In this document: one piece after another, positions 1,714 to 27,542 of the stretch
Layout: each line of letters begins with the position of its first letter
Numbering within the stretch: position 1 is the first letter of the stretch
Source of the DNA: a virus
Virus record (IMG/VR): IMGVR_UViG_3300024317_000014
Location: 1-28,063 of that record
Direction: 5' to 3' (one strand)
DNA: 28,063 bases
The notes under the pieces: generated by a model
Database searches by the model: none
What the model saw: only the letters and a program-made list of their open reading frames with translations
What the model was told of the DNA's origin: nothing
Position numbers and translations under genes: made by a program

Positions 1714-1728
1714 CCGTAATTATTACGG
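1714..1728. repeat. Dispersed palindrome, copy 1
   Basis: CCGTAATTATTACGG, a perfect 15-bp odd palindrome. Read on the gene strand it supplies two consecutive stop codons (TAA TAA) for the upstream gene and ends two bases before the next ATG. Confidence 0.95.
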
Positions 1729-2913
1729 AACCATCAGGATCTTGAAGGGCGCATCCTGCGCTCCGGTAGCTGTGAATCTCAGGGAGATATCTGCCCCGTT
1801 GAGATCAGAAGCGTCCAGGTCCACGACATACCAGCCATTGGAAAGCTCTGTCACGGCATTGGCGCAAGAGGCGAATGCTGCCCCGTCGATACTGCGGAAT
1901 CCAACCACCGACAAGCCCGTACGCGGCACACCAGCGGTATCCCTCATGAGGAAAGCGAATCCAGGCATACTTACATTGGTTGTGTTATTCGCCTGTACCT
2001 TGACTCGGCCACTGGACAGGCTCACCTGCCCCGTGCCAGTGCCGGAAGAGATAAGCACGCTGGCCCCGATATCACGGGCTGTCTGAGTAGTGCCACCCAT
2101 CTTCAGCATGTTAGCGTCAACGTGTCCAGCAACCGTGAAGGTCAGTGAGTCCGTCTTGGTCTTGATAGCCGACACCACAGCATCCAGGTTATGGCCGAGA
2201 ATGTACCCAGCCTTGCCCGATGCGTAAGAGCCAGGGAGCGAGACATCCCACGGATCAGCACCTGCCCCAAGGTTGCCCAAGATATAGCCGCCGCTGCCAG
2301 CGGAGTAAGCCCCAGGTAGAGCCACATCCCATGGGTCAGACTTGACACGGCCAGAAGTGAAGTCAAGCTGTCCAGTGCCAGTGCCACTACTGAGCAGTAC
2401 ACTCGCTCCTATGTCCCGTGCAGTCTGGGACGTGCCATTGATCTTGAGCACATCCACACGCCCGCTTGAGTCAACCGACAGAGGCAGACCGCCATTAGCC
2501 CCTGCATTGGCATTGGGCAACGCAGTGAGCCCGCCCCGAGTGGCATCCTGATTGTCCCAGCCTGTAAGCTCAATCTCAATGGGCACAGGGGCCATATTGG
2601 TTACGCCTTGCAGATGAATGGAGACAAAGCGGCCACTGGCCAAAGCGGCATCTGGGATATCGAAGCGATACCACCCAGGCATATTGGTGGAGTCAATCTC
2701 CTTGAAACCCCCGGAGGAGTATGAGGATGTCACCGCTGCCAGAGTGGCCAGTGTGATAGAGACTGACGCCGCACGGGGGAGAGCGTAATAGGCCGTGAGT
2801 CCACTGGAGTTGTACACCAACCCAGTCTTAGCCGCGCCCACAGTAGACGATGAGTCCTGGATGTAGATGTTAACCGATTGGCTCGTGGAGCCTGCTTTGA
2901 TAGATAGCTTCAT
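1723..2913 (-). CDS. Beta-rich tail appendage protein with internal repeats (396 aa)
   Basis: The protein is low in charged residues and rich in Ser, Gly, Thr and Ala, as in phage tail-fibre or baseplate appendage proteins. Two internal duplications are visible. A unit containing TARDIGASVLLSSGTGTGQ appears near residues 160-190 and again near 275-305. A 24-residue unit (DPWDV-LPG-Y--G--GYILG) is tandemly repeated near residues 195-240. The N-terminal region (WYRFDIPDA) and C-terminal region (GWYVVDLDASDL) resemble each other, suggesting paired beta domains. Its stop codon lies inside palindrome copy 1. The start at 2913 is preceded by GAGGG four bases away. A structural role at the tail tip is inferred from position and composition. 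Confidence 0.85.
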   Translation of the reverse strand: MKLSIKAGSTSQSVNIYIQDSSSTVGAAKTGLVYNSSGLTAYYALPRAASVSITLATLAAVTSSYSSGGFKEIDSTNMPGWYRFDIPDAALASGRFVSIHLQGVTNMAPVPIEIELTGWDNQDATRGGLTALPNANAGANGGLPLSVDSSGRVDVLKINGTSQTARDIGASVLLSSGTGTGQLDFTSGRVKSDPWDVALPGAYSAGSGGYILGNLGAGADPWDVSLPGSYASGKAGYILGHNLDAVVSAIKTKTDSLTFTVAGHVDANMLKMGGTTQTARDIGASVLISSGTGTGQVSLSSGRVKVQANNTTNVSMPGFAFLMRDTAGVPRTGLSVVGFRSIDGAAFASCANAVTELSNGWYVVDLDASDLNGADISLRFTATGAQDAPFKILMVP

Positions 2914-2923
2914 ATGCCCTCAA

Positions 2924-2938
2924 CCGTAATAATTACAG
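2924..2938. repeat. Dispersed palindrome, copy 2
   Basis: CCGTAATAATTACAG, central base A on the plus strand. It contains the stop codon of the gene ending at 2933 and lies 10 bases upstream of the next start. Confidence 0.95.
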
Positions 2939-4042
2939 TATCCCAAGTGGATCAGCGAAGAACGGGCCACCACTGCCCAGCCCAGCTAGACCAGCAGGAC
3001 GGAACAGACCGCCAGATGCTGGTGGTGATCCCGTAGCGATACGAAAGGTTACCTCATAGAGAAATGGGTTAACGTTCGCGTTGCCAGAAACACCAGTTAG
3101 TCTGTAGTATGTATAGCCCGTGGTATTGCCATGTGCCCCTATGAACGTGGATTGACACATGAACACCGAATTGGAACTCACGTTATATTGCCGCCGTAAA
3201 TTGTTGTTGTAGTCGCCGCCTATAGTGTCGGTGGTTCCGATATCCGCGAAAGATACCCCGTCATTACTGCCTTGCAGCTTCCAGGTTGCATAGGAGTCAG
3301 TGGTGTCTTGATGCCATCGCAGTTCATCAATCACACGCGGGCTGGAGAATTGCCACTGAATCCACTTGCTTGCTACTGCGAGATGCAGGCTCTCAAATTC
3401 AAGAGCCCCTCCACCTGACGTATCAACTCGGTTTAGACCATCACAGAACAGATTGAGGGTTGGGTCTTGAAAACCAGATCGACCAAAGATAAGATCTCCA
3501 TGGCCACTGGTCTGGCTCTGAGTGACTGTAATCGTGGCAGTCCTATCACCTGTGCCGTCTGCATTGCCATAATCAGGCACGGCAGCATCGAGCGCATCAA
3601 TCTGGAACTCAATGCCCTTGGTGAAAGGGCTATCTGACACGTTGCCGCTTATACCCAATAAACGGTAGTACCTGTAAGGTGTGGTATTCCCGTTTAGCTG
3701 CGTCTGCGTCTGTGTGGTAGCACCCGCCAGAGTGAAAGAGCTTCCAATATCTGTGTAGGATGAGTCGTCATTGGACCCCTGCCACTTCCACACACCTTGT
3801 GCAGTTGAATTATCCTGATACCACTTGGCCTCATCCACAATGCGGGCAGAGCCAAAGTCGAAAGTGATGTAGTACCCAGATACAGCATGTCCACTGTCGT
3901 TGAACCAGATAACGTTAGTCGGCGTATTGACTAGGTACGCAGGGTGCTTGGTACCACCAGATCCCCAGTTAACATTAGACTGCACAAGGATCAAGTGGTA
4001 CCGCTGTCCAGTACCGCCCGAATTGGAGTAGCTTTGAGCCAT
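2933..4042 (-). CDS. Tail protein with two discoidin-like (F5/8 type C) domains
   Basis: Two copies of a discoidin-like pattern are visible in 369 residues. The first, about residues 55-150, has an aromatic-rich strand, a WKWQGSNDDSSYTDIG loop and YRYYRLLGISGN. The second, about 220-335, has WIQWQF, WKLQGSNDGVSFADIG and YTYYRLTGVSGN. Discoidin domains commonly bind carbohydrates or lipids, so this is probably a receptor-binding or virion adhesin component. The C-terminus is Gly-rich. The start at 4042 lies three bases from palindrome copy 3, with no Shine-Dalgarno sequence. Duplication of the domain is seen directly; ligand and placement on the tail are inferred. Confidence 0.88.
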   Translation of the reverse strand: MAQSYSNSGGTGQRYHLILVQSNVNWGSGGTKHPAYLVNTPTNVIWFNDSGHAVSGYYITFDFGSARIVDEAKWYQDNSTAQGVWKWQGSNDDSSYTDIGSSFTLAGATTQTQTQLNGNTTPYRYYRLLGISGNVSDSPFTKGIEFQIDALDAAVPDYGNADGTGDRTATITVTQSQTSGHGDLIFGRSGFQDPTLNLFCDGLNRVDTSGGGALEFESLHLAVASKWIQWQFSSPRVIDELRWHQDTTDSYATWKLQGSNDGVSFADIGTTDTIGGDYNNNLRRQYNVSSNSVFMCQSTFIGAHGNTTGYTYYRLTGVSGNANVNPFLYEVTFRIATGSPPASGGLFRPAGLAGLGSGGPFFADPLGIL

Positions 4043-4045
4043 AAA

Positions 4046-4060
4046 CCGTAATAATTACAG
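4046..4060. repeat. Dispersed palindrome, copy 3
   Basis: CCGTAATAATTACAG, central base A on the plus strand. It holds the stop codon of the tail hub gene and lies three bases from the next start codon. Confidence 0.95.
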
Positions 4061-6637
4061 TGGGTAGATCCCACCAAACCCGATCATGGTGATGTCTGAT
4101 CCGGATGAGCCACCGCTAGAGCCAAGGCTTATATATATGTTCACACGGTTATTGTCCGGATCTTCAACCACAGTTACAACAATCCCGCCGAGCCCGATGA
4201 AGTTGAGGGTGTGACGCGTGCCGATTGACACTCCGTCTGACATGGCCTCAACTTTGGCTGGGCTCCACTTAAGCCCAGTAGCTTCGCCGCTATCAGCAGT
4301 GAGCACAGAATCATCAGCGCCCACAGGTAGCCGCACAGGATTACCGTCATAAGCCAAGAGATCACCGACAGTGGTGAGGGGTTGCGATACGTCTTCCCAG
4401 TCTGTGTCATAGTCTGTATCCGATAGCTTAGTCAGTACTTGGCCAGTGGTGCCACCAGCCGGAACACCCACTCCAGGATCTCCATCTGCTCCCTTGAGAG
4501 CCATGAGATCCCAGAAATCAGTGCCGCCCACCTCAGGCTCATTGCCTGTGTTGTCATCCTGGAGACTGATGTAGCTGGAGCCCTCGTGCTCCACACCATC
4601 CCCCATCTCGTAGGTTGCGCTGTTATCCCAAGGCCCTCGCCAAGTGCCCATGATAGACACCTGATTGACGATGCCCCACATGACAGTGACCGTAGCCACA
4701 CCTTGAGCATCGAAAGAGCCATCAGATCCTGTGATGTCCCAGCTAATCGCCTGACCCTTCACGAGATGTTTGGTCTTGATAGAGATGGACACTTCCGTAT
4801 CAACCTCGGTAGTCTCAGGGATGGTAATGGTGTCCAGTTCATTACCAGCGAGATTGACGCGAACAACCAGATTGGCAGAGATCTCCTTGCGCAAGACGGC
4901 TGTGATCTTGATGCCTGGGCCTGTCTCCTGCACTGTGAGCACGGGGCCAACATTGTCACCAATAGTTGTCTTGTGGATGTCGAACACGCGCCAGAAGGCT
5001 TGGGGTGCTGGGGCTCCCCCGCCACCGCTACCCCCTATGTCATCGGGGGGCCTCAGCCGTGCCAGCGTAGCCCTGTAGTCCCAATCAATCAGGGGAGAAC
5101 CCAACGCTGTGACATTCCACACCACCCATGCCCCATCAGTTGAGACGGTCACCGAGTCAATCACGAAGCGGCTATTAACACCCCAGCGGGCTTTATCAAC
5201 TAGGATATTCATCCCAACTTTGAGCCCATTCTTGAATGTCTTGATGGTGACCTTCTTAGGGATCACACCGAACTGCTGACCTATCGCCTTGGCATAAGTC
5301 TGGCCGTCCACTAGAGTGTTGGGATTGTCCTGTTGCTGGACGCTCTCATGGTAGCCAGTGCCGCCCTGACGGGCAGAGGCGAAGTCAATGGCGTCAGTGT
5401 TGTAATAGGTGGCAAAGCCTGCCTGGAATTGAGGACAGGTGACCACGATAGCAAGGCCGTCAGCTACTGGTGTCTCAGAAGGGTCCTGGGATATGCCAGT
5501 GGAGTTAAGATTCCAATACCATTGCTTACCTGTGTTGACGCCCTGGATGCCTACGGTTTGGGGATTGCCATCGACGGTGATCGTGGGCTCAGCAGCCGCA
5601 GGACCAGCAAGACTAAAATTGCGGGTACTTCCATCTCCTGTGAAGGTAGAGGGGATAGGATCTGACGCCTGATTGCCTTCACGTATAATGACTCGATTGA
5701 CAAACGTGTCACCATCTTCATCCATCTCAAACCCAATGGTATAGTCATCGGGATCAGAGTCATCGGTGATGTCAAAGGGCGCGGCTGGGCCGTTAGTGTC
5801 ATCCGATATCGCAATCTTCTTGTCCGGAGTGCAGTACCAGTGCAGCCACTGCGGGGGAGTGCCCTGTGTGCCCGTGGTAATCAGATTGTCAAAGGCAGCT
5901 CCGCACATGGCGTAGCTAACCTTGAAGGACGGGATGGGCTCACCGTCTGCCGCCAGTGGCAGGTAATCAAAGCCCTCACTAGAGAGAGCATTGACAACCA
6001 GATACTTCATGATTCCCTTGGCTAGCTCATTGTCGAACTGGCCAGCAAAGGGCTTGGCTATTGGTGAGTCGGGATCGGTAGGCTCTCCAGTAGTGCGGCC
6101 ATACACAACCACTTCCCAGCCCACACAGTCAAGCTGCCATTCCATGTATGCGTCATTGCCCTGCACCTCTACGGCCCTGACGCGCATAATGAGCCCGCCA
6201 AAGTACATGTCACTGTCAACTATGGCAAGGATAGGCTGAAGAGTCAGAGGCGGATCAAGCGTATCAAAGAAGCTACAGCTAAACGTGTCGTGAGTGGTCA
6301 GGGAGTTATTGACGTGGAACGTATTGACTCGCGGCCCTCTGAGCCTGAACAGTGTACCGTTAGCAGAAGCATCGGGGGTCTGGGTAGCCGCGTCCTCCGT
6401 CTCGCACACTGTATCACTGGTGACAGAGACGATGACAGTACGCAGCATTCCATTGTCATCAGTGCTGGGGTCGATAGGATCAGTGGCCCCAATGATCCAG
6501 ATAGGAGAGCCCACGTCAGCCGCAGTGAAGTGCATCCTACCCGCGACATCCGTAACAGTAGTGCCCGACATCGTGCAAGTAGACACCACACCAATTCTCA
6601 CTTGCGCTAAGTCGATCTGTGTCTTTGGCAGGCTCAT
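4055..6637 (-). CDS. Tail hub/tip protein with carbohydrate-binding C-terminal part
   Basis: This 860-residue protein lies immediately after the tape measure, the usual place for distal tail or hub proteins. The N-terminal 500 residues look like a baseplate-hub scaffold. A Gly-rich linker (GGSGGGG) follows near residue 534. Around 662-690 a segment with WRGPWDNSATYEMGD then YISLQDDNTGNEP matches the look of small chitin/cellulose-binding modules (CBM5/12 type). Near 720-740 the motif GGTTGQVLTKLSDTDYDTDW is a recurrent phage tail-fibre element. The start at 6637 has no Shine-Dalgarno sequence; palindrome copy 4 lies 11 bases upstream. Assignment to hub or tip is by position and domain style and is fairly secure in general terms. 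Confidence 0.88.
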   Translation of the reverse strand: MSLPKTQIDLAQVRIGVVSTCTMSGTTVTDVAGRMHFTAADVGSPIWIIGATDPIDPSTDDNGMLRTVIVSVTSDTVCETEDAATQTPDASANGTLFRLRGPRVNTFHVNNSLTTHDTFSCSFFDTLDPPLTLQPILAIVDSDMYFGGLIMRVRAVEVQGNDAYMEWQLDCVGWEVVVYGRTTGEPTDPDSPIAKPFAGQFDNELAKGIMKYLVVNALSSEGFDYLPLAADGEPIPSFKVSYAMCGAAFDNLITTGTQGTPPQWLHWYCTPDKKIAISDDTNGPAAPFDITDDSDPDDYTIGFEMDEDGDTFVNRVIIREGNQASDPIPSTFTGDGSTRNFSLAGPAAAEPTITVDGNPQTVGIQGVNTGKQWYWNLNSTGISQDPSETPVADGLAIVVTCPQFQAGFATYYNTDAIDFASARQGGTGYHESVQQQDNPNTLVDGQTYAKAIGQQFGVIPKKVTIKTFKNGLKVGMNILVDKARWGVNSRFVIDSVTVSTDGAWVVWNVTALGSPLIDWDYRATLARLRPPDDIGGSGGGGAPAPQAFWRVFDIHKTTIGDNVGPVLTVQETGPGIKITAVLRKEISANLVVRVNLAGNELDTITIPETTEVDTEVSISIKTKHLVKGQAISWDITGSDGSFDAQGVATVTVMWGIVNQVSIMGTWRGPWDNSATYEMGDGVEHEGSSYISLQDDNTGNEPEVGGTDFWDLMALKGADGDPGVGVPAGGTTGQVLTKLSDTDYDTDWEDVSQPLTTVGDLLAYDGNPVRLPVGADDSVLTADSGEATGLKWSPAKVEAMSDGVSIGTRHTLNFIGLGGIVVTVVEDPDNNRVNIYISLGSSGGSSGSDITMIGFGGIYPL

Positions 6638-6648: not shown

Positions 6649-6663
6649 GTGTAATTATTACGG
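6649..6663. repeat. Dispersed palindrome, copy 4
   Basis: GTGTAATTATTACGG, the asymmetric-flank variant. It lies between the tape measure stop (6664-6666) and the hub start (6637). Confidence 0.95.
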
Positions 6664-10551: not shown

Positions 10552-10935
10552 ATATCTTCCTCTTCTTTATTTTACGGGCTTTATTGGCTGTCACACCCTT
10601 AAGAGCCTGCTTCAATTCCTTCCAGTTTCCGCCAGCCCCTCTATCGGGATCAGGTGTAATTATTACGGTTTTCTTCTGCGGCGGGTACTGCTGGAGCAAT
10701 AGGTCTTCAGCCGTGAACGCCTTGTCACTGGTATTGGTACGGCCTCGGTTAAGTTGATAGGACGCAGATTGAGCGACAAAGAAGTCCCTTGTTCTATCCC
10801 AGGTAAGCACCCTAACACGATAAAGGGCTGTGACCCGCGCTAGGGTTGACTTGTCAAACTCCTCAGAAGTCAGCCCCAAACACCGAGCCACAGCCCAGTA
10901 CTGTAACCACGATTTGTTTGAGGCTAAGAAGGGTC
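10538..10935 (-). CDS. Tail assembly chaperone, second part, expressed by probable -1 frameshift
   Basis: From the GTG at 10891 this frame is 117 codons, but no ribosome site precedes that GTG. The same frame stays open upstream to a TGA just before 10935 and reads protein-like (SNKSWLQYWAVARCLGLTSE), so coding clearly begins before the GTG. This frame is -1 relative to the upstream chaperone gene, the arrangement of lambda G/GT and most siphovirus tail chaperones. The slip must occur between 10927 and 10935, in GAG GAC CCT TCT just before the TAG. The fusion would be near 270 residues and would help load the tape measure and tail tube. Palindrome copy 5 is in frame, encoding Thr-Val-Ile-Ile-Thr. 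The boundary given is the open frame, not a proven start. Confidence 0.8.
10654..10668. repeat. Dispersed palindrome, copy 5 (inside coding sequence)
   Basis: GTGTAATTATTACGG inside the tail chaperone frame, read as codons ACC GTA ATA ATT ACA (TVIIT). Confidence 0.95.
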
Positions 10936-12028: not shown

Positions 12029-13055
12029 ACCATTCCGCCTTAGGTAACTGCTGCCCTTCCAATAACTTAAGTATACCAGCGTCCAGCCCCCGCTTCTTCC
12101 ACTTCTGTATCAGGTAGAGCTTACGGGAGACGAACATCTTGTCCAGGTCAATGCCCATGGCCTTAAGCTCAGGCCAAGACGAGTGGAGAGCGCGGTGCAG
12201 GTACCGCATCCCGCCAAAATAGCGGTTTTTGTAGCCTGCTTCTACAAGCTGGTAGTGGAGATCATCATCCTCATAACCCCAGCCCAGCCCGCCGAATGGC
12301 CCATCCTCATCGAAGCGTACGCCTTTCTGGAACATCTCACAGCGGAACAGGCCGTACTGAGTCCAGGCGCACCGGATATCATTGCGGGTGCGCGACTCTG
12401 GGATCTCTACAAGATTGTGGGCACACTCCTCTCTCTTCTCCGAGAAGTTAGCAGAGTAGGCACCGATGACGCCTACGTCCCAGTGGCACTCCAGATAGCG
12501 AGTCATGGTATAGGCCGACAGAGGAACTATCTCGATGTCGCCGTCCATGAGCATCAGGTACTTGGAGCCCACCACTTTGACCGCAAAGTCGATGATGGCG
12601 TTACGCGCCTTGCATATCCCCTGATTGGTATTGAACCTACCCAGATGGACATTGGATGGTAGAGTCTCACCGAACAAGCCCCGGATAGCTTCCCACGTGC
12701 CATCAGTAGACCCGTTGTCCATGATGCAGATATAGGGTACAAGGCCGAGCTTGATAAGCCTGTTGGACTCTTCCACCAGTGCCATGACCCCCTCAACACT
12801 GATGTCTCGTGTGTTCCAGCACAAGTAGCCAAGTGTAATTATTACGGTTTTTGGGGCATCCCCGTTCTGACTGTCCATGTACTTCTGGATATCCCCCTTG
12901 TATTCAGTGGTGATGCCATGCCCCTTGGCCTTGCAATGCTCCAACATCTTGACAATACAGCCCGCTCCAAGAGTGTCATAGGCACAGTCCACACACATAC
13001 AGTGAGTCAGGCCCTTCCTCTGGCTTGTGTTCCAGGTGTATTCTAGCTGCCCCAT
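12003..13055 (-). CDS. Family 2 glycosyltransferase with N-terminal zinc finger
   Basis: The 350-residue protein has a C2H2-like finger at residues 21-46, then a GT-A type transferase. The first strand is KTVIITLGYLCWN (69-81), followed by DNGSTDGT (113-120), a DxD-type metal site MDGDIE at 170-175, and a late GWGYEDDDL with E262-D263. These are the expected motifs of family 2 enzymes that transfer a sugar from a nucleotide-sugar. Within the tail genes it may glycosylate a virion protein. Palindrome copy 6 encodes the first strand (residues 70-74). The gene overlaps the tail terminator gene by 13 bases and the small zinc-finger gene by 26. The sugar and acceptor cannot be inferred. Confidence 0.9.
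   Translation of the reverse strand: MGQLEYTWNTSQRKGLTHCMCVDCAYDTLGAGCIVKMLEHCKAKGHGITTEYKGDIQKYMDSQNGDAPKTVIITLGYLCWNTRDISVEGVMALVEESNRLIKLGLVPYICIMDNGSTDGTWEAIRGLFGETLPSNVHLGRFNTNQGICKARNAIIDFAVKVVGSKYLMLMDGDIEIVPLSAYTMTRYLECHWDVGVIGAYSANFSEKREECAHNLVEIPESRTRNDIRCAWTQYGLFRCEMFQKGVRFDEDGPFGGLGWGYEDDDLHYQLVEAGYKNRYFGGMRYLHRALHSSWPELKAMGIDLDKMFVSRKLYLIQKWKKRGLDAGILKLLEGQQLPKAEWYVGPKANS
12833..12847. repeat. Dispersed palindrome, copy 6 (inside coding sequence)
   Basis: GTGTAATTATTACGG within the glycosyltransferase gene, encoding TVIIT at the first beta strand of the nucleotide-binding fold. Confidence 0.95.
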
Positions 13056-14258: not shown

Positions 14259-14818
14259 GTGCTGGTTCGCTCCCAATCCTTCCAGATCTTCTCGCACCAG
14301 CTAGGACGGTCGTAGACCATCTCAACCATGTCAAACACGTTCTCCTCAAGCACTAAGTCACGCATAGCCTTAGCTGCCGCCCGCATCTCCTTGGCCATCG
14401 CGGGGCCGTCCGTCTGGAGATCGAGGATCTTGATCTTCTTAAGGATCAGGATCATGTTGACTGCCATAGCGTCTAGGCAATCGGCTGCAATGACTTTGGC
14501 ATCGGCAATGTTACCGTCACTGTCGGTATTCACGTCGATGATGTTTTGAATGGTCGAATCGAGAAGGATCACTTGGTCATACTGGAATGTGTAGTTTCCA
14601 GACGAAGCACCAGCGCCAAGTGTGATACGACCATTCTGAGGATCGGTGAGGGTAAATGCAGGAGCCGAGCCGCTTGGAGGTGTAATTATTACGGTTCCAT
14701 CGACTACGGGGAAGTACACGGTCTGGAACGTCAGTTGCCCCGCTACCGCTACGATGACATCGCTATGGTACAGGGGCTGGTCCTGGATCAAGGATCGGAT
14801 TTGGTCAATGAGAGACAT
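14255..14818 (-). CDS. Head-tail connector/adaptor-type protein
   Basis: With ATG at 14818 the start overlaps the upstream TGA as TGATG; a GTG one codon earlier is less likely. The 187-residue protein opens with a helix (MSLIDQIRSLIQDQPLYHSD), has beta strands including the TVIIT segment encoded by palindrome copy 7 (residues 42-46), then a helical half with two acidic Asp-rich stretches. Adaptor proteins that bind the portal occupy this slot, but the beta-rich N-terminal part is not a standard adaptor fold that I recognise. Head-tail connector is a positional call. Confidence 0.65.
   Translation of the reverse strand: MSLIDQIRSLIQDQPLYHSDVIVAVAGQLTFQTVYFPVVDGTVIITPPSGSAPAFTLTDPQNGRITLGAGASSGNYTFQYDQVILLDSTIQNIIDVNTDSDGNIADAKVIAADCLDAMAVNMILILKKIKILDLQTDGPAMAKEMRAAAKAMRDLVLEENVFDMVEMVYDRPSWCEKIWKDWERTST
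14680..14694. repeat. Dispersed palindrome, copy 7 (inside coding sequence)
   Basis: GTGTAATTATTACGG inside the connector gene, encoding TVIIT at residues 42-46. Confidence 0.95.
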
Positions 14819-16671: not shown

Positions 16672-16686
16672 GTGTAATTATTACGG
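16672..16686. repeat. Dispersed palindrome, copy 8
   Basis: GTGTAATTATTACGG between the scaffold stop (16704) and the decoration gene. The ribosome site of the latter is intact between the repeat and the ATG. Confidence 0.95.
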
Positions 16687-18126: not shown

Positions 18127-19920
18127 CTAACGTTTCGCCCCCGGTAAAGGGGCACCTGAAGGCTTCGGAGTAGGCTTAGAGGCTGTTTTCATAGCTGCAT
18201 CTGCCGACTTGAGAGCCGCATCTCCAAGCTCTTTCTTACCCTGAGCTACCAGATGCTCATCGTCCATCTTGTCCGCCGGATCAGCAAAGCCTTGCAGCAC
18301 AGAGTCAGGATACAGCAGTTCTGTCATCCGCTGCGCATCCTCGCGGCCAAGAGCCTCAAGCAGCATCTCACAGACCACTTTACGGTCAGGGATGATACCC
18401 TCAGCGGCACTACCACCTAATGTTACAGCCTGGACAACCGAGCGAACACGATCGGTCACGTCGCGCTCAAGTATATTGGGGAACTCGATCTTGACGTTGG
18501 TGGTTTCACCTTCAGGTGGAATAACCGTAATTATTACGGTCCCGTCGAAGGAATCCCGTGTCATCTCGGCACTGTAGCCAGCCTTGTTGAGAACACCACC
18601 TGGAGCCTGAGCAGACCACTCAATCAATCGGGTGCAAAAGGCTTGTATGACCCCAGCCCACATGTCTTGACGAGAAACCATCTTAAGCTCAGTAGGACGA
18701 TCAAGGGTGGTAGATGTGGCGAAGTTGCCAATGTCGGAGTCCCCGAGGAAGTGTTCAGGGGTATCTGACCCAGCCGCGACCATTGACCTGAGTGCGCGTG
18801 CCTCATCTGGACCTGTCGTAGATCCCGCTGTTTTAATCGGCTTGACATCTGCGGCCCCCGATAACAAGGCCCAAGATGCTGTATTAGTGGGCGGATTATT
18901 GTCAATCGCCCGCCCATTCTGGACCCCTGTCTTCATCCTGTTCTTGCTGGCAGCGACACCAGCTTTCCCAGGCAATCCCGATATTTGGTACGCGAGTCTG
19001 GCATAAGCGGCCAGAATTGTGGCAAAGTTCTCCAGAATGCGCTTGTAGCCCGTGGCCCAGCCAAATGCTGAGATAAGCTCAGGGCACCCGAAGCGCATCA
19101 TGTCCAGCCCACCCGTCTTGAGATGGTAGGTGCAAGTGTCCCAGGCTATACGAGTGCCGTCGATATCGTACTTGCGGCGGGTAACTGGGTAGTAGTCCCA
19201 ATCCGGATACAGGGTGTTCTCCTGTACAGTGTCCTGCATCATCTGATCTTGGAGAAAGAAGCCCCCATTCGGGCCTCCAACGTTAGACACACGAGCATAA
19301 AAGCGGGGCTCTTTGGAGTCTTCAGGGTTGTAAATGATACCTTGTATTTGGTCAAAGGGGAGGAGTCGAACGCGGGCAGTGCCGTTTTCCTTGTTCCGAT
19401 AGAATATGAAGAACTGATTACCGTCAACCCGTTGCTGTCGCTCTCGCTCAGTCCAGGCATCCCCGATAATGCGTTGATTCTTCCTGTTATTGAAAAAGTC
19501 ATCAAGCACCTTCTGCACATTGGGGTTCTCAGCGGTGATCTGCACGCCTCTGCCCCAGACATATAGCTCCTGCACCGTCACGACACGCTTGATTAGAGGA
19601 TTGATCATGTACATGACACGGGAGAGCCCCACGATGCGCCTGAGAGTGGTACGGGTGAAATTGAAGGTAGCGTCCGCGCCATTCGCAAGCCAGCCACGAT
19701 CCTCACCGGAGAAGGTGGCCTCAAGCTCACCAAAAGCAGATTCCAGGACTTCCACCATCTTGCCCTTGAGCGCCTCTTGGGACGGCATACCTGAATCGCC
19801 ATCCTTCACCATGAGAGCCTCTTCGGCCAGATCAGCAGTCGCAGTCATGTGATTTGCGCCCAATGACGCGCCAGCCCAAGCCCCTACGAGCTTATCGCGC
19901 AGTTGCTTTCCGAATGTCAT
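18127..19920 (-). CDS. Portal protein
   Basis: A 597-residue protein between terminase and protease genes, the usual portal position. It has the portal layout: a helical N-terminus, RRIVGLSRVMYMINPLIKRV at the start of the core, an acidic/aromatic wing with DGNQFFIFYRNKENGTARVR, then FDQIQGIIYNPEDSKEP, and a helical C-terminal part. Portal rings form the DNA channel at one capsid vertex. Palindrome copy 9 encodes TVIIT near residues 461-465. The start at 19920 has no ribosome site; palindrome copy 10 ends two bases before it. Confidence 0.92.
   Translation of the reverse strand: MTFGKQLRDKLVGAWAGASLGANHMTATADLAEEALMVKDGDSGMPSQEALKGKMVEVLESAFGELEATFSGEDRGWLANGADATFNFTRTTLRRIVGLSRVMYMINPLIKRVVTVQELYVWGRGVQITAENPNVQKVLDDFFNNRKNQRIIGDAWTERERQQRVDGNQFFIFYRNKENGTARVRLLPFDQIQGIIYNPEDSKEPRFYARVSNVGGPNGGFFLQDQMMQDTVQENTLYPDWDYYPVTRRKYDIDGTRIAWDTCTYHLKTGGLDMMRFGCPELISAFGWATGYKRILENFATILAAYARLAYQISGLPGKAGVAASKNRMKTGVQNGRAIDNNPPTNTASWALLSGAADVKPIKTAGSTTGPDEARALRSMVAAGSDTPEHFLGDSDIGNFATSTTLDRPTELKMVSRQDMWAGVIQAFCTRLIEWSAQAPGGVLNKAGYSAEMTRDSFDGTVIITVIPPEGETTNVKIEFPNILERDVTDRVRSVVQAVTLGGSAAEGIIPDRKVVCEMLLEALGREDAQRMTELLYPDSVLQGFADPADKMDDEHLVAQGKKELGDAALKSADAAMKTASKPTPKPSGAPLPGAKR
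18525..18539. repeat. Dispersed palindrome, copy 9 (inside coding sequence)
   Basis: CCGTAATTATTACGG inside the portal gene, encoding TVIIT near residue 461, just before VIPPEGE. Confidence 0.95.
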
Positions 19921-19922: not shown

Positions 19923-19937
19923 CTGTAATTATTACGC
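19923..19937. repeat. Dispersed palindrome, copy 10
   Basis: CTGTAATTATTACGC, two bases upstream of the portal start codon. Confidence 0.95.
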
Positions 19938-20336: not shown

Positions 20337-20437
20337 GCATACAGGGTACCAGCATAGTACTAGCGTTTCACCCCATTATGTGCCTTTTTTCACCAATCAG
20401 TACTAAGGTGAATCCCCTATTTCCGTAATTATTACGG
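20337..20437. other. Intergenic gap after terminase
   Basis: About 100 bases between the terminase stop and the next gene. It holds palindrome copy 11, a KpnI-like GGTACC, and AGTACT. I see no consensus promoter or terminator. Confidence 0.6.
20423..20437. repeat. Dispersed palindrome, copy 11
   Basis: CCGTAATTATTACGG immediately after the terminase stop codon (20438-20440), 86 bases before the next start. Confidence 0.95.
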
Positions 20438-22324: not shown

Positions 22325-22339
22325 CTGTAATTATTACAC
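22325..22339. repeat. Dispersed palindrome, copy 12 (overlaps late promoter)
   Basis: CTGTAATTATTACAC. On the minus strand its TAATAAT core lies 16-17 bases after a perfect TTGACA. Confidence 0.95.
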
Positions 22340-22704: not shown

Positions 22705-22709
22705 GCACC

Positions 22710-22716
22710 TATTATA
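22710..22716. promoter_or_regulatory. Overlapping divergent -10 elements, leaderless genes
   Basis: TATTATA reads as TATAAT on the minus strand, six bases before the ATG at 22704, and as TATTAT on the plus strand, ten bases before the ATG at 22726. Neither gene has a Shine-Dalgarno sequence. The -35 regions are weak. Confidence 0.6.
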
Positions 22717-22725
22717 CGATTAAGT

Positions 22726-23034: not shown

Positions 23035-23037
23035 GGA

Positions 23038-23081
23038 CGGGAGAGGTGGCAGGAACCCGTTGCTTGAGGTGGCCTCTCCCG
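23038..23081. terminator. Hairpin terminator between convergent genes
   Basis: CGGGAGAGG (23038-23046) and CCTCTCCCG (23073-23081) form a perfect 9-bp stem with a 26-base loop, between the stops of the plus gene (23034) and the minus gene (23083). It lacks a clear T-run, so efficiency is uncertain. Confidence 0.65.
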
Positions 23082-23082
23082 C

Positions 23083-23484
23083 CTATTGCATTGGCGTTTT
23101 ATTCACCTTATCACGGTTTCTGTCCCACCAGATAGCCGCTGAGGTGCGATTAGCGTGACCTGTTTTGCCCAGCACCTCACTCACATAGGCTTTAATGGTT
23201 CCAGTGTCCAGTTTCAGCTTGAAAGCTATTTCCTTGTTGAGCAGGCCTTCCACCAAGCAGTCCAGCACTTGGTAGTTGCGCACGGTGAGGGGTTCCCCTA
23301 GCAACTGCTCCCTAGTTCTGCGCGTTTGGTACAGTTTCCTGCGCTCTGGAGTCTGGCGGCACGCATGGCAGATCTTGGCTTTCGCGTTATTGCAGATGTA
23401 AGCGTGGAAGTCCTTGCCGCAACGTGCGCAATTGTTCATCTCAAGCTGTGGAACATCATCTCGAATAGGGCCTTTATATGGCAT
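23083..23484 (-). CDS. LuxR-type HTH regulator with N-terminal zinc ribbon
   Basis: In 133 residues there are two parts. Residues 19-42 carry a Cys cluster (C19-x2-C22, C31, C39-x2-C42) suggesting a zinc ribbon. Residues 66-118 match a GerE/LuxR-type DNA-binding domain: LTVRNYQVLDCLVEGLLNKE, then IAFKLKLDTGTIKAYVSEVL and a final helix. Such domains bind DNA as dimers. It is preceded by a strong promoter (23699-23727), a structured 200-base leader and palindrome copy 13 inside a larger inverted repeat, so it may be autoregulated and is a candidate to bind the dispersed palindromes. An alternative start is ATG at 23439. Confidence 0.85.
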   Translation of the reverse strand: MPYKGPIRDDVPQLEMNNCARCGKDFHAYICNNAKAKICHACRQTPERRKLYQTRRTREQLLGEPLTVRNYQVLDCLVEGLLNKEIAFKLKLDTGTIKAYVSEVLGKTGHANRTSAAIWWDRNRDKVNKTPMQ

Positions 23485-23487
23485 CCA

Positions 23488-23522
23488 GGGTACCTACCGT
23501 AATTATTACAGTACTGGTACCC
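23488..23522. promoter_or_regulatory. Extended inverted repeat around palindrome copy 13
   Basis: GGGTACC (23488-23494) and GGTACCC (23516-23522) flank copy 13 (23497-23511), making a 35-bp imperfect palindrome directly upstream of the LuxR-type gene. GTACTGGTACCCGC (23511-23524) recurs with one change at 22361-22374 beside the late promoter. Confidence 0.7.
23497..23511. repeat. Dispersed palindrome, copy 13
   Basis: CCGTAATTATTACAG, 12 bases upstream of the LuxR-type gene start. Confidence 0.95.
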
Positions 23523-23532
23523 GCTCGGACAG

Positions 23533-23638
23533 CCCGCTTCGCGTGCAGTCCTCGCTCCGCTCGTCCAGTACAGGGCTCTGGGGGATTGCGAAGATCCCGG
23601 TATTTGCTGCGTAAGCAGCAAAGAGGGATCGAAGCGGG
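23533..23638 (-). ncRNA. Structured leader RNA element upstream of the LuxR-type gene
   Basis: The segment is closed by CCCGCTTC (23533-23540) with GAAGCGGG (23631-23638). Inside are GATCCC/GGGATC (23593-23598 and 23625-23630), which encloses a perfect 8-bp hairpin TTTGCTGC-GTAA-GCAGCAAA (23603-23622), and GCAGTCC/GGATTGC (23545-23551 and 23583-23589), complete only in plus-strand RNA where it has a G-U pair. A consensus minus-strand promoter starts transcription near 23692, so this would be the 5' leader of the LuxR-type mRNA or a small RNA. Strand is inferred from the promoter. Confidence 0.6.
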
Positions 23639-23698
23639 AGGTATCGTGTGAATCCCCCCTTCCCTCTCTCTTGGAACTCTCTCCCAACCCCCCTTCTT

Positions 23699-23727
23699 AT
23701 TATATTGTCAAATTCAACTTCTGTCAA
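23699..23727 (-). promoter_or_regulatory. Consensus promoter toward the LuxR-type gene
   Basis: On the minus strand TTGACA (23727-23722), 17 bases, then TATAAT (23704-23699): a perfect sigma-70 consensus promoter. Transcription would run left through the structured element. TTGTCA at 23705-23710 on the plus strand may serve a weaker divergent promoter. Confidence 0.85.
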
Positions 23728-23762
23728 GAATTATTATTTTCTGGGTATTTTACGGTTGAAAA

Positions 23763-23777
23763 CCGTAATAATTACAG
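23763..23777. repeat. Dispersed palindrome, copy 14
   Basis: CCGTAATAATTACAG, in the leader of the plus-strand gene at 23872. An adjacent ACGGTT-GAA-AACCGT inverted repeat (23752-23766) overlaps its left end. Confidence 0.95.
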
Positions 23778-23871
23778 TGGTTTAGGGTATTTTGGCCTAT
23801 TTCGTACGGATTCTGGTCGATTTTTCTTGCAATTCTCTGAATTTCGCCTTACTCTTGGATCAGGAGGCGAT

Positions 23872-24120
23872 ATGAACACTGGATTACAGACCACTCTCTG
23901 CCCTTCTTGCAGCCGGAACACTCCACGCGAGACGCATGTTTGCGTATTTTGCGGCTGCTCCACCTCCACCAGTACCTTTGCCGAGATCGCTGAGACTCCC
24001 GAAGCGCCTATTTGGCATCCTTGGGTGGTCATATACACCGAACAGGGCAGCGTTCCTTATGTTCTTGACAAGATTGAGATGGATACACGACGGGAGTTAA
24101 CCGCGACGCGGGATAACTGA
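23872..24120 (+). CDS. Small zinc-ribbon protein (82 aa)
   Basis: The start at 23872 has a perfect AGGAGG five bases upstream; a longer frame beginning at 23671 has no such site and crosses a repeat. The 82-residue protein has C10-x2-C13 and C24-x2-C27, a compact zinc ribbon (LCPSCSR then CVFCGCS). A Trp/Pro segment (PIWHPWVVIYTEQG) and a charged C-terminus follow. It is one of several small Cys-pair proteins here. Zinc binding is likely; a role in transcription or assembly is a guess. Confidence 0.82.
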   Translation: MNTGLQTTLCPSCSRNTPRETHVCVFCGCSTSTSTFAEIAETPEAPIWHPWVVIYTEQGSVPYVLDKIEMDTRRELTATRDN

Positions 24121-24321: not shown

Positions 24322-24462
24322 TTACCTCATCATCTGGCTCAAGAACCAGAAGAACACCCCTAACCATCCCAGGCTTAGCCTAGACGGGGCTGTTGGTAAG
24401 CCTACTGCCGCGCAAAGCACGCATATAACCGCTATCACTTGCAGGATCAACGTTGGATTCAT
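24322..24462 (-). CDS. Small membrane protein (46 aa)
   Basis: A minus-strand ATG at 24462-24460 is preceded by GGAGG with a four-base spacer, a near-ideal ribosome site. The 46-residue product has two hydrophobic segments: MNPTLILQVIAVICVLCAAVG, then LGWLGVFFWFLSQMM, joined by a short turn with PTAPSRLS. This is a hairpin-type small membrane protein, holin-like in size and topology, but there is no lysis gene nearby. Palindrome copy 15 lies 22 bases upstream and a terminator hairpin 8 bases downstream, giving a complete small transcription unit. Confidence 0.75.
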   Translation of the reverse strand: MNPTLILQVIAVICVLCAAVGLPTAPSRLSLGWLGVFFWFLSQMMR

Positions 24463-24483: not shown

Positions 24484-24498
24484 CTGTAATTATTACGG
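24484..24498. repeat. Dispersed palindrome, copy 15
   Basis: CTGTAATTATTACGG, just upstream of the small membrane protein gene at 24322-24462. Confidence 0.95.
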
Positions 24499-24910
24499 TT
24501 TTGCTGGATATTGGTTAGTCTGAAGATAACCTCCCCCTCACCTCTTTTGCGCTGGAGTCCCGCCCGCTTTCATGTGACTCCCAAAACATCTATTAGGAGA
24601 TTCCCTGATATACGTACTCGGGGCAATCCCTTATTACCAACTGTAATAATTACACTTCATACACGTGTACATTTGCGAAGTGGCCGTTTACGGCCACTGA
24701 GCACCCAGGCACCCGGATATATGCGGAGCGGTGCACCGTGCGCACCTACCGACCTCTGCGTCACAAGAAACGGCACTCTACGGTGACTCAGTGCGGAGTG
24801 TCCGCACCACTTTCCGCACTTGAGACACACTCCTATGCCGAGTGGACAGTAGACTAACAGCTAGAAAAATCAGAAAAGTAGCACCACAGAAAAGTGTGTG
24901 TGCATAACTT
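24499..24910. other. Non-coding, palindrome-rich stretch
   Basis: No convincing gene. It contains palindrome copy 16, the perfect palindrome TACACGTGTA (24660-24669), an 8-bp stem AGTGGCCG-TTTA-CGGCCACT (24679-24698), and a 7-bp stem GTGCGGA-GTG-TCCGCAC (24791-24807) with a further CCGCAC at 24814-24819. Frames crossing this stretch have poor composition and no ribosome sites. It flanks the iteron array and may belong to the same origin or control region. Confidence 0.6.
24641..24655. repeat. Dispersed palindrome, copy 16
   Basis: CTGTAATAATTACAC, followed within five bases by the TACACGTGTA palindrome. Confidence 0.95.
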
Positions 24911-25004: not shown

Positions 25005-25179
25005 GACCAGTATGGCCGTGTGCATCACATGCCAAGTGCGCATAGTATGAGAAGCAAAATAAACAAAACACGCAAACGGATAGAGGCACCCTAAGGGCAG
25101 GACTACTCTTAGGGACACTAACGGTAAGGGCGGGAGACGAGATTCGCGCCACGCGCTAGGTACAGTGGGGAGATAAGCT

Positions 25180-25305
25180 ATGGGCTCCTCTGCGCGATAC
25201 ATACACTACTACCCTGTGTGGAGAACTAACCCGAACGGGACCACAGGGTACGGTGTCAAATACTACCAAGACGTGCTACCGAGTCTGATACGGTGGATGG
25301 ACTAG
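25180..25305 (+). CDS. Possible small protein (41 aa)
   Basis: ATG at 25180 is preceded by GTGGGGAGA with a good spacer. The product begins MGSSARYIHYYPVWRTNPNG and ends LPSLIRWMD, rich in Tyr and Trp. The frame coincides with the structured hairpin at 25211-25249, so it may instead be chance within an RNA gene. Confidence 0.35.
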   Translation: MGSSARYIHYYPVWRTNPNGTTGYGVKYYQDVLPSLIRWMD

Positions 25306-25635
25306 TACCGAGAGATCCTCTTACGCTTAAGCGTGGGGATACCAGCGTGCGTAGAGCGGGTGTTTAGACTACGCATAAATCCTAGCGATGAGTTAGGTTT
25401 ACTGAGAGCACGGGGCGAGAGCTTAATTAGCCGTGCACACAGAACGCGGGGATACTAGAGATCATGACTTGCTGATTGATTAAATGGGCAAGGTAGTGGA
25501 ATAGTGAACGGATCAAGTGACTTGGTTGCATTGAACGCCTAACACCTGCAATGACAGTCTACAGACTGAGCACGCGTTAGGGTAGTAGACAGGCCAATAT
25601 CGAATAGATCTAGGAGACAGCCACGATAAAGATAA

Positions 25636-25650
25636 TCGTAATTATTACAC
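25636..25650. repeat. Dispersed palindrome, copy 17
   Basis: TCGTAATTATTACAC, immediately upstream of the terminator hairpin. Confidence 0.95.
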
Positions 25651-25654
25651 TTTG

Positions 25655-25692
25655 AGCGAGGGCGCTAGTAAAGGCCCTCGCTTGTATTTATT
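25655..25692 (+). terminator. Rho-independent terminator
   Basis: AGCGAGGGC (25655-25663) pairs perfectly with GCCCTCGCT (25674-25682), loop of 10, followed by the T-rich TGTATTTATT. The polarity fits a plus-strand transcript. Confidence 0.8.
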
Positions 25693-25701
25693 CCCTTTGG
25701 C

Positions 25702-25924
25702 GGTAGACCTTGGACTACTTCATAAGTCTGGGGTCGTATGAGCTAAGCAGTGCGTACGACTGCTCTTATACGCTTAAACTACCTAGCCCTAGTAGCAGAG
25801 AGATAGACTAACTCGCTTTAACCTTCGGCGATATGCGTAACCAATGTGAGTCTTGATGGCCACTGGACACAGCTAAGCCAACTACGCGACGTTAAGACTA
25901 CCTGATCTAAATCTAAGGTCTACC
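25702..25924 (+). ncRNA. Candidate structured leader or RNA, about 220 nt
   Basis: GGTAGACCTT (25702-25711) pairs perfectly with AAGGTCTACC (25915-25924), closing a 203-base interior. Inside, GTATGAG/CTTATAC plus AGCAGT/ACTGCT form a 13-bp two-step hairpin with a seven-base loop (25736-25771), and AGTCTT pairs with AAGACT (25849-25854 and 25894-25899). No frame of useful length crosses it. It ends seven bases before the ribosome site of the small membrane protein gene, so it may be the leader of that operon, or a separate RNA. The strand is inferred. Confidence 0.5.
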
Positions 25925-25942
25925 ACCTGGGGGAGTAAACAT

Positions 25943-26050
25943 ATGACGCCAGTCGATTCGATCGCCGCTTTTGCTGTACTCATGGCAGTCTACTGCATTG
26001 GACGTGCCATACGGGTGGCCTTTCCACCTAAGACAAAGATGTACCGCTGA
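25943..26050 (+). CDS. Small membrane protein (35 aa)
   Basis: ATG at 25943 follows GGGGGAG with a good spacer. The 35-residue product, MTPVDSIAAFAVLMAVYCIG and then RAIRVAFPPKTKMYR, has one hydrophobic segment and a basic C-terminus, the shape of a single-pass inner-membrane protein with the tail in the cytoplasm. It is the first gene after the structured RNA region and precedes the RNase III gene. Function unknown. Confidence 0.65.
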   Translation: MTPVDSIAAFAVLMAVYCIGRAIRVAFPPKTKMYR

Positions 26051-26125
26051 GTACCTCAGGTGCTATCGCTCAGTGACAGAGTGATAGCTCTTGTCTATTC
26101 AGAGAGTAGACCAACAGGAGAGAAT

Positions 26126-26515
26126 ATGGAACATATGCAACGGGCACTGGTACACTCCAGCGCCGATAACACAGAGAACAATGAGCGATTAGAGTATCTG
26201 GGGGATTCAGTCCTTCAGCTAATTGCCTCAGAGTATCTCTTTAACCTGATGGCTAGATCTACTGAAGGTCAGCTATCCCAGGCTAGGGCGCGGTACGTAT
26301 GCCGCGCCAATCTTGTAGCCGTGGCTCAACGTACGCAGCTCGGACTGAGATTGGTACTCGGTAGATCAGAGTTAATGGATGGAGGGCGCAATAAGCCCAA
26401 CATCCTAGCAGATGCAGTAGAGGCGCAGATTGGAGCCATGTATCTCACGTACGGGATGCAGACTACAAGACAGTGGGTAGTGGATAACATCATGGCTCGG
26501 CCAACAGTTAGCTAG
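26126..26515 (+). CDS. RNase III catalytic domain protein
   Basis: The product matches the RNase III catalytic domain. With ATG 26126 the signature is NNERLEYLGDSVL at residues 18-30 (E20, E23, D27), then TEGQLSQARA (E47), and ILADAVEAQIGAMYL (D96, E99). All six acidic residues expected for the metal site are present. There is no double-stranded RNA-binding domain, so the protein is about half the usual length. I prefer ATG 26126 because AGGAGA lies six bases upstream; a GTG at 26060 would add 22 residues that could complete the first helix. It would cut double-stranded RNA and sits beside likely structured RNAs and hairpin-rich gene junctions. Confidence 0.92.
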   Translation: MEHMQRALVHSSADNTENNERLEYLGDSVLQLIASEYLFNLMARSTEGQLSQARARYVCRANLVAVAQRTQLGLRLVLGRSELMDGGRNKPNILADAVEAQIGAMYLTYGMQTTRQWVVDNIMARPTVS

Positions 26516-26530
26516 CCGTAATTATTACAG
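26516..26530. repeat. Dispersed palindrome, copy 18
   Basis: CCGTAATTATTACAG, starting one base after the RNase III stop codon and three bases before the GGAGG of the next gene. Confidence 0.95.
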
Positions 26531-26543
26531 TTTGGAGGATTCA

Positions 26544-26804
26544 ATGCAGGACTATAACAAGAAAACATATGTGGACTTTGGCCAGCACGTGACTATGGAG
26601 ATTGGCTGGAGTGAAGCGGCCATGCACTTGCAGATTGCAGGCAAGGTGCTGGAAGTTGAGCTAAGACTTACAGCCCCTGACAAGTCTGTATGTGTGGCTC
26701 AGGTCTACAAAGACGGCGCAGAGTACAGCTTCCCAATCACCCCAGGAGAGGCTGGATTCTACTGGGATTCTGACGGGTATTACTACTACCCGCCGAAAGA
26801 GTAA
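26544..26804 (+). CDS. Hypothetical protein (86 aa)
   Basis: ATG 26544 follows GGAGG with a good spacer and is preferred to the TTG at 26532. The product, MQDYNKKTYVDFGQHVTMEI onward, is an acidic, beta-rich small protein with a very aromatic C-terminus (FYWDSDGYYYYPPKE). No motif recognised. It is the first gene after the RNase III gene, with palindrome copy 18 between them. Confidence 0.8.
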   Translation: MQDYNKKTYVDFGQHVTMEIGWSEAAMHLQIAGKVLEVELRLTAPDKSVCVAQVYKDGAEYSFPITPGEAGFYWDSDGYYYYPPKE

Positions 26805-26842: not shown

Positions 26843-26858
26843 AATGGAGGATAACTTA

Positions 26859-27227
26859 ATGAAAGCATCATTCGACCCAGAGTATGCGTATCATCTGGGT
26901 TACCATGACGGACTAGAAGACGGCCACAAAGACCCCAAGAGGGACTTTGACAGGGCTAAGACAGACCCACGCACTGTAGCCTATTTCGCAGGGCTCAAGG
27001 CTGGTGTGGCTCAGGCGCAGAAGGAGGGCTTAGATATGCGCTGTTTAGTGCGCTGGGATAAGCCTGGATTCGATACTCCTCAGTGTGAGAGTAAGTCTCA
27101 CTATCTGGCTTTCGCTTACGGCCACGTTATACCGCTGTGCATCAGACACGCTTTCAAGATATTCCTTGACATCGAGGGCAAACCTGATGCCAATCAGTGG
27201 ACAATAATTCCCAAAGACTGGGTGTAA
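26859..27227 (+). CDS. Hypothetical protein (122 aa)
   Basis: ATG 26859 is preferred to ATG 26844 because GGAGG (26846-26850) lies eight bases upstream of it. The protein begins MKASFDPEYAYHLGYHDGLE and has a helix with repeated Gly-Tyr-Asp/His patterns, then a middle with MRCLVRWDKPGFDTPQCES and a C-terminal part rich in His and aromatics. It resembles small hypothetical proteins in phage early regions in style only. No function assigned. Confidence 0.8.
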   Translation: MKASFDPEYAYHLGYHDGLEDGHKDPKRDFDRAKTDPRTVAYFAGLKAGVAQAQKEGLDMRCLVRWDKPGFDTPQCESKSHYLAFAYGHVIPLCIRHAFKIFLDIEGKPDANQWTIIPKDWV

Positions 27228-27238
27228 GTAACCCGCTA

Positions 27239-27260
27239 GGCTGTGCTCACGAGTACAGCC
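27239..27260 (+). promoter_or_regulatory. Intergenic hairpin before ribosome site
   Basis: GGCTGT (27239-27244) and ACAGCC (27255-27260) form an inverted repeat just before GAGGTG and the ATG at 27276, the same layout as at 26812-26842. Confidence 0.5.
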
Positions 27261-27275
27261 GATGAGGTGCTGCTT

Positions 27276-27515
27276 ATGACAGTGATTTACGACGATCTAC
27301 TAGCTTGTCAGGACTGTGTGACAGCCATCGCCAATGATGACTATTCAGGCATGGATGACAGACAAGAGGCCAAGACTCGTAGGGGCATAGAGTCCTGGAG
27401 TAAGAAGGGTTATTTGGTTGTGGGTGATGAGGTAGGCTTCACCCGTGATGGCTGCGACATCTGCGACGATAACCTAGCAGGTGACAAGCACACGGTAAGC
27501 CTGTTAGGCGAGTAA
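27276..27515 (+). CDS. Small Cys-pair (zinc-binding type) phage protein (79 aa)
   Basis: ATG 27276 has GAGGTG six bases upstream and is preferred to a GTG at 27243. The protein has C11-x2-C14 (ACQDCVTAIANDDYSGMDD) and C60-x2-C63 (DGCDICDDNL), so it likely binds one zinc with the pairs brought together. The pattern of a CxxC, AIAN-D-SGM, a helix, then VVGDEVGF and CxxC recalls small hypothetical proteins common in actinobacterial phages, which is a weak clue to host type. Function unknown. Confidence 0.82.
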   Translation: MTVIYDDLLACQDCVTAIANDDYSGMDDRQEAKTRRGIESWSKKGYLVVGDEVGFTRDGCDICDDNLAGDKHTVSLLGE

Positions 27516-27527
27516 CTCGCTTGCTAG

Positions 27528-27542
27528 CCGTAATTATTACGG
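27528..27542. repeat. Dispersed palindrome, copy 19
   Basis: CCGTAATTATTACGG, extended by GCTAG (27523-27527) and CTAGC (27544-27548) into a longer inverted repeat just before the ribosome site of the next gene. Confidence 0.95.

Follow-up and report, generated by a model that had tools for sequence, protein, structure and literature searches.

Why does a tailed phage carry the same short palindrome over and over along its genome? The question is raised by a 28,063-nucleotide stretch of IMG/VR record IMGVR_UViG_3300024317_000014 (positions 1 to 28,063; this whole stretch is called the window below), in which the palindrome GTAATWATTAC (W being A or T) occurs in 19 exact copies, against 0.02 expected from dinucleotide shuffles. 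The answer that we favour, with a probability of roughly 0.6, is that the palindromes are loading sites of a phage protein of the ParB family that controls transcription or organises the DNA genome-wide. The findings suggest a switch or organiser that acts on the whole genome; until now such devices were known from plasmids and bacterial chromosomes.

A palindromic DNA site specific to one phage group

The window had been taken for the genome of the phage, but it is a linear fragment of a tailed phage, in which portal, TerL, capsid and tail genes are present. IMG/VR contig 3300024232_000025 (G001), which is 99.995% identical to the window over 21.7 kb, continues the phage for another 20.8 kb. 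The joined sequence (A; 48,890 b) contains 35 sites. Genes were placed on A with a curated set of 66 genes from our own calls, whose start positions are approximate. IMG/VR record 3300019875_000001 (G002) is a relative of A, 74% identical in alignable DNA. Several of the site-bearing virus records are fragments; G003, with a 144-bp terminal repeat, and G018, which also has terminal repeats, are for that reason probably complete genomes.

All 19 window copies named in the original prediction were recovered (its 15-bp starts lie two positions before the starts of the core), and its statement that their number is far above chance agrees with the shuffles, of which none in 100 had more than one copy. 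Allowing up to two mismatches brought just two extra matches in the window, the number expected by chance. As near-misses do not exceed chance, the site appears to be all-or-nothing. The 11-bp core is a perfect dyad except for the centre base in all 19 copies. As had been described, copies 1, 9, 11 and 19 are perfect 15-bp palindromes, and a GT...GG flank is common to copies 4-8. The proposed extent of 15 bp was too short: over the 35 copies in A the flank preference is AASY-GTAATWATTAC-RSTT, i.e. the motif exceeds 15 bp. Complementary changes in the two half-sites are not in excess at the outer positions. The halves thus vary independently, which fits DNA half-sites read by a dimer rather than an RNA stem, so that the earlier argument for a DNA site stands. 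An RNA hairpin or RNase III site was rejected on the same observation, the complementarity of the outer half-site positions being no better than chance.

The distribution of the palindrome supports a genome-wide DNA site that belongs to this phage group alone. In a 17-mer scan of IMG/VR, repeated matches came solely from the window phage and its relatives, and the motif scan of the extended genome and its relatives, proposed earlier as a check, confined the array to the same group. In the metagenome-assembled genome (MAG) REEB45, about 26 copies of GTAA-N3-TTAC lie on one 45-kb contig, against 4 in the rest of the 1.4-Mb assembly.

That 45-kb contig, JAGWWT010000009.1 (L171; contig C89 of G052), is a member of the phage family that was binned, perhaps by accident, with a Patescibacteria MAG. 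The palindromic sites give away which contig of this MAG is phage.

Site variants and the ParB-like protein

De novo palindrome searches in the genomes of the relatives revealed variants of the site, with at least four core types among the site-bearing phages and 17-51 sites per genome. The site has the form TGTAATSATTACA in G003, G041 and G045-G049, GTAATNATTAC with mixed outer bases in G051, TGTAACSGTTACA in G004, TGTAAASTTTACA in G042 and mixed TGTAAWSWTTACA in G050, while G043 contains 4-6 copies of GTAGANTCTAC in 27 kb. A different odd-centred palindrome, CCGAAANTTTCGG, is found in 16 copies in G018 (L030; IMGVR_UViG_3300013307_000006, 62,217 b), 15 of which extend to ACCGAA N3 TTCGGT. 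No such motif family was found in the TerL relatives G006, G009 and G017 or in the other TerL-relative loci examined.

The genes common to the site-bearing phages are TerL (in several of them), replication genes and a ParB/Noc/KorB-type gene, and the product of the latter is the sole predicted helix-turn-helix (HTH) DNA-binder that they have in common. In A this gene encodes 429 aa and is located at 31441-32730 (+) in extended coordinates, 3.4 kb to the right of the window end (25101-26390 in G001). Between 17 and 51 copies of GTAA-N3-TTAC are present in every one of the 14 phage contigs that have a close homolog (A 35, G002 41, G003 27, G004 17, G041 46, G042 44, G045-G051 17-51, and the REEB45 contig about 26), whereas the TerL relatives without the gene have no copies. 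G018, which has little else detectable in common with A, G002 and G003 (TerL and weak polymerase matches), contains a distant ParB-like gene at 54299-55489. The G041 homolog gave no plasmid or isolate-phage match, and cyanophage Yong-DA was rejected as a relative, having a ParA-ParB pair and no comparable array.

The ParB-like protein is, to judge from these sequence comparisons, very probably the binder of the palindromes. A profile of five homologs matched ParB, Spo0J and Noc in the PDB with values of 1e-12 to 1e-8, and KorB with 5e-4. The Pfam domain HTH_ParB was above the cut-off in the homologs of G003 and G018, ParB_N below it. On its own, the copy of the window phage gave no Pfam or PDB ParB match, and its membership of the family follows from the matches of its homologs. 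The candidate binder has a ParB-type N-terminal domain followed by a ParB HTH; its AlphaFold model has a mean pLDDT (predicted local distance difference test) score of 78, and the top Foldseek matches of the model are ParB and Noc (E 5e-8). Residues G65, R68 and N105, belonging to the cytidine triphosphate (CTP)-binding motifs GxxR and ENxxR, are invariant over nine homologs.

The start of the putative recognition helix varies together with the site. Where the half-sites are GTAAT, residue 161 is F or M; in G042 and G050, the only close homologs whose sites have A beside the centre, it is H. The homolog in G004, where C stands next to the centre (GTAAC), is without the GGRKG loop that adjoins this residue. 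G042 and G050 are 38% identical and belong to a single, weakly supported group in the ParB tree (0.52), which includes G051 with F, and the independence of the two changes to H is therefore not proven.

Could another regulator bind the sites, such as the LuxR-type HTH protein (23083-23484), the TerS-like HTH protein or a host protein of the Zur/Fur family? The core GTAATNATTAC resembles the Bacillus Zur box, and site 13 and a conserved promoter lie a short way upstream of the LuxR-type gene. For the LuxR-type and TerS-like genes, however, no counterpart was detected in G041 and G042, and the core changes among the phages (GTAAC, GTAAA, CGAAA), which a conserved host regulator would not explain. 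We consider binding by one of these proteins very unlikely. The Zur/Fur-family box was discarded as the relatives change the core together with the phage's own HTH protein, and the LuxR-type, XRE-type and TerS-like proteins as they are not common to all site-bearing phages.

A search for ParA (PF13614) found none in A (as G001), G002-G004, G018 and G041-G051, and a match in 14 of 14 control genomes. This bears on the proposal that the sites are centromeres for ParA-type partition of a plasmid-prophage that uses a host ParA. A candidate binder of the ParB family and parS-like palindromes would suit such a system, but the records searched lack a ParA gene, and partition systems as a rule have their sites grouped close to the locus, not 17-51 of them spread over a genome. 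We regard this reading as very improbable. The original prediction had named partition and Noc-type sites among its guesses, and it thereby pointed to the right protein family; for ParA-driven partition, the ParA is missing from the records searched.

Placement, spacing and a possible role

The sites are kept in place. Alignable DNA contains 26 of the A sites, and for 23 of them G002 has an exact copy at the corresponding position, compared with 7.7% of all aligned 11-mers; G002 itself has 33 W-centred sites, or 38 when any centre base is allowed. Noncoding sequence makes up 12.5% of A, yet it holds the centres of 24 of the 35 sites (P 2e-14), and 17 of the 35 are located upstream of a start codon at a distance of at most 60 bp (8% expected, P 3e-10). 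Among the ten in-gene sites scored, nine read VIIT and one (43228) lies in another frame; G002 keeps eight exactly, apart from the centre base, which can be either A or T. At site 9, for example, this base switches between A and G002 while VIIT is unchanged.

Two other causes of this pattern were rejected. A protein-coding constraint does not account for sites that are mostly noncoding, for the other frame at 43228, or for the central Ile codon at conserved VIIT sites, which toggles between ATA and ATT and is never ATC. A promoter -10 element was considered because the palindrome holds AATAAT, yet the relatives with GTAACSGTTAC, which are without it, keep the layout.

The spacing averages about 1.4 kb in A and lies at about 1.2-2.2 kb in the GTAA-type phages. 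In the best-sampled genomes (A, G002, G041, G042 and G051) the sites are more evenly spaced than under random placement, with a coefficient of variation (CV) of 0.44-0.63 (P < 0.001), e.g. 0.57 in A, 0.44 in G002 and 0.54 in G051 (each P < 0.001). Even spacing is not significant in G004, G018 and, marginally, G047. It is not a by-product of gene boundaries, since random draws from the boundaries of A gave a CV of 1.10.

We infer the following mechanism. A dimer of the ParB-like protein would read the two half-sites through its ParB-type HTH, and the N-terminal ParB domain, probably with CTP, would close the dimer into a clamp. The clamp would then spread along the DNA between sites some 1.4 kb apart and might thereby silence or time phage transcription genome-wide, as RK2 KorB does from its operators; in addition, it may organise the phage DNA. 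A role in genome-wide transcription is proposed because sites lie at the starts of genes, close to promoters and at regular distances along the genome. Given a ParB-like binder, we put the chance that transcriptional control is its main role at even.

The position of the sites at gene starts favours transcriptional control, whereas their even coverage makes a structural role possible, in which the same protein on the same sites would coat and compact the replicating DNA, segregate daughters or prepare packaging, with secondary effects on transcription. In line with this, the even spacing goes beyond what gene boundaries give, sites are present inside structural genes far from promoters, a long coiled coil follows the HTH, and the ParB-like gene is co-inherited with the replication module. 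That the sites strongly favour the last few tens of bp before start codons speaks against it, as does the lack of ParA in the records searched, and a mainly structural role therefore appears to us possible and rather less probable than the loading-site reading as a whole.

Several observations weigh against palindromes that load a ParB-type clamp for such purposes. The enrichment of promoter-like sequences near the sites (26 where 10.6 are expected, with the sites masked) is partly confounded, as both promoters and sites are intergenic. The AlphaFold model is confident within domains and not globally (predicted template modelling score, pTM, 0.44), and in it the HTH is followed by a long antiparallel coiled coil (197-348) and a C-terminus that is small and helical. 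In the ENxxR motif this phage retains the Asn (N105) but has K104 in place of the Glu, a position that varies in others too, and the replacement may alter or abolish CTP hydrolysis. The sites of G018 likewise have A adjoining the centre, yet its protein has W, not H, at the aligned position. The close ParB homologs share replication genes as well, which makes their co-occurrence with the sites partly phylogenetic, and in G044, the genome of a distant homolog, no enriched palindrome was found.

The loading-site reading can be taken further. These could be lytic phages that encode a ParB-type CTP clamp of their own, which covers the entire genome and works without ParA from 17-51 evenly spaced centromere-like sites, as a nucleoid-like or transcription-silencing network, its specificity having been rewired repeatedly through the recognition helix. 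We regard this extension as tentative, with the odds somewhat against it.

Comparison with known systems

By analogy, the phage array would work most like KorB/OB or Noc. KorB of plasmid RK2, a CTPase clamp of the ParB family, silences promoters as far as 1.5 kb away from OB (PMC11790492). It resembles the putative regulator described here in being a ParB-family protein with operators both promoter-proximal and more than 1 kb away (PMC11790492); the phage sites are found near starts and promoter-like sequences and also distant from them. The sliding range of up to 1.5 kb is comparable to the phage site spacing, which at about 1.2-2.2 kb fits such a reach. KorB differs in acting on a plasmid, whereas a phage with 17-51 sites and a protein with a long coiled coil after the HTH are found here. 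Its clamp-lock partner KorA is known, while none was identified in the phages, where no KorA-aimed search was made. Moreover, the KorB profile match of the phage protein family (5e-4) is weaker than that to ParB/Noc (1e-12).

Noc needs no ParA, has many palindromic sites along the chromosome and plays a chromosome-organising role. The Noc of Bacillus (structures 7nfu, 7ol9) is likewise a ParB-family protein; it differs in serving a bacterial chromosome, with far sparser sites and another motif.

The original prediction had likened the array to the stoperators of cluster A mycobacteriophages. These are 13-14 bp long, have no dyad symmetry, are bound by monomeric Rep and are oriented with transcription, in temperate phages with an integrase or parABS (PMC6550527). 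The likeness holds for the layout, with 20-30 sites per genome in cluster A, and for the divergence of site types among relatives; it fails on membership, the sites here being dyad-symmetric, the candidate binder belonging to the ParB family, and no tyrosine integrase (PF00589), resolvase (PF00239) or ParA having been found in the site-bearing records. Stoperator-type immunity, in which a lysogen repressor would sit on all sites and block elongation, might draw on the 20-50 sites per genome, on the specificity that diverges as in cluster A and on an XRE-type HTH gene in G002 and G003. The asymmetric, oriented stoperators (PMC6550527) differ from the symmetric phage sites, however, integrase and resolvase are missing even in G003 and G018, and the XRE gene was not found in G041 (46 sites) or G042 (44 sites). 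We judge such immunity unlikely. On the sequence data, the phage array is not a stoperator system by definition, because of its dyad symmetry, its protein family and the lack of prophage-inheritance genes, nor is it ParABS, no ParA having been found in the records searched.

Two further systems share single traits with the array. SPbeta has one 15-bp element, SPBRE, at intergenic phage sites, to which the phage master regulator MrpR binds, but the sites are about ten promoter sites and the protein has a recombinase fold (PMC10516654). VirB of Shigella is a ParB-family CTP-dependent clamp that acts on virS as transcription regulator, but it is an H-NS anti-silencer at particular plasmid promoters, with no genome-wide phage array (PMC10770331). 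A literature search on the inverted repeats of the phiC31 repressor returned nothing.

We know of no ParA-less phage version of ParB with described DNA sites. The available part of a 2025 survey of ParB-fold proteins links many orphan homologs to mobile elements, presents ParB-fold proteins outside partition as widespread and mostly unexplained, and does not describe genome-wide phage site arrays (PMC12704722). In this set of phages the protein comes along with its probable sites and with several natural switches of specificity. Regulation over long range by a clamp of the ParB type thereby becomes testable on a small genome, and the code that links the ParB recognition helix to its site becomes readable from natural variation. 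Should the clamp indeed cover the genome, the phage would have a new means of running its transcription programme or organising its DNA.

Individual sites and neighbouring genes

The first four sites of the window are intergenic and precede genes on the minus strand. Site 1 (1716..1726; CC-GTAATTATTAC-GG, position kept in G002) has its centre 10 bp upstream of the start of 773-1711, site 2 (2926..2936) 18 bp upstream of that of 1723-2913, site 3 (4048..4058; kept in G002) 11 bp upstream of that of 2933-4042, and site 4 (6651..6661; kept in G002) 19 bp upstream of that of the tail gene 4055-6637. Sites 5-7, all kept in G002, are located within open reading frames (ORFs) on the minus strand and use VIIT codons (GTA ATA ATT ACA in site 5): site 5 (10656..10666) in 10538-10891, site 6 (12835..12845) in the glycosyltransferase-like ORF 12003-13055, and site 7 (14682..14692) in 14255-14821. 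The glycosyltransferase-like gene is part of a tail/head-completion gene cluster.

The following sites, 8-11, are kept in G002 as well. Site 8 (16674..16684) is intergenic, its centre 26 bp upstream of the start of the head gene 16240-16653 (-). Site 9 (18527..18537) is a perfect 15-bp palindrome within the portal gene 18127-19920 (-), and the intergenic site 10 (19925..19935) has its centre 10 bp upstream of the portal start. Site 11 (20425..20435), another perfect 15-bp palindrome, is intergenic between TerL and the gene 19947-20336. Site 12 (22327..22337) lies 24 bp upstream of the TerS-like gene 21841-22308 and overlaps the -10 of a promoter-like TTGACA-N17-AATAAT (-, 22358-22330); in G002 its position is kept with a C/G centre.

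Sites 13 and 14 lie on either side of a perfect sigma-70-type promoter, TTGACA-N17-TATAAT (23699..23727, -), stronger than any other promoter-like sequence in that half of the window which was scanned. Site 13 (23499..23509; kept in G002) is 20 bp upstream of the LuxR-type HTH gene 23083-23484 (-), and site 14 (23765..23775) about 40 bp upstream of the -35 of the promoter (23727-23699), both site and promoter being kept in G002. The LuxR/GerE-type HTH protein encoded just downstream of the promoter has an N-terminal zinc-finger-like cysteine cluster and is also kept in G002.

Site 15 (24486..24496; kept in G002) is 29 bp upstream of the small ORF 24322-24462 (-). Sites 16 (24643..24653) and 17 (25638..25648) are intergenic, and the G002 copy of site 17 has one mismatch (GTAAATATTAC). 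Site 18 (26518..26528) lies between the RNase III-like gene 26060-26515 and the gene 26532-26804 (+), and site 19 (27530..27540), a perfect 15-bp palindrome, 22 bp upstream of the gene 27557-27796 (+). The phage-encoded RNase III catalytic domain (Pfam 4.5e-30) is kept in G002. Near the ParB-like gene, a 396-aa protein (A 29024-30214; G001 22684-23874) matches PHROG 1362, of unknown function, and is 70% identical in G002.

Finally, a second type of array was observed in G008 (L012; IMGVR_UViG_3300012351_000011, 54,989 b), which has a tyrosine integrase and no ParB-like gene. It contains 24 copies of CCTTGCAAGG, 18 of them being CCCTTGCAAGGG, spread over the record (e.g. at 1930, 13228 and 34587), which are probably the repressor sites of a separate system that spans the genome of a temperate phage.

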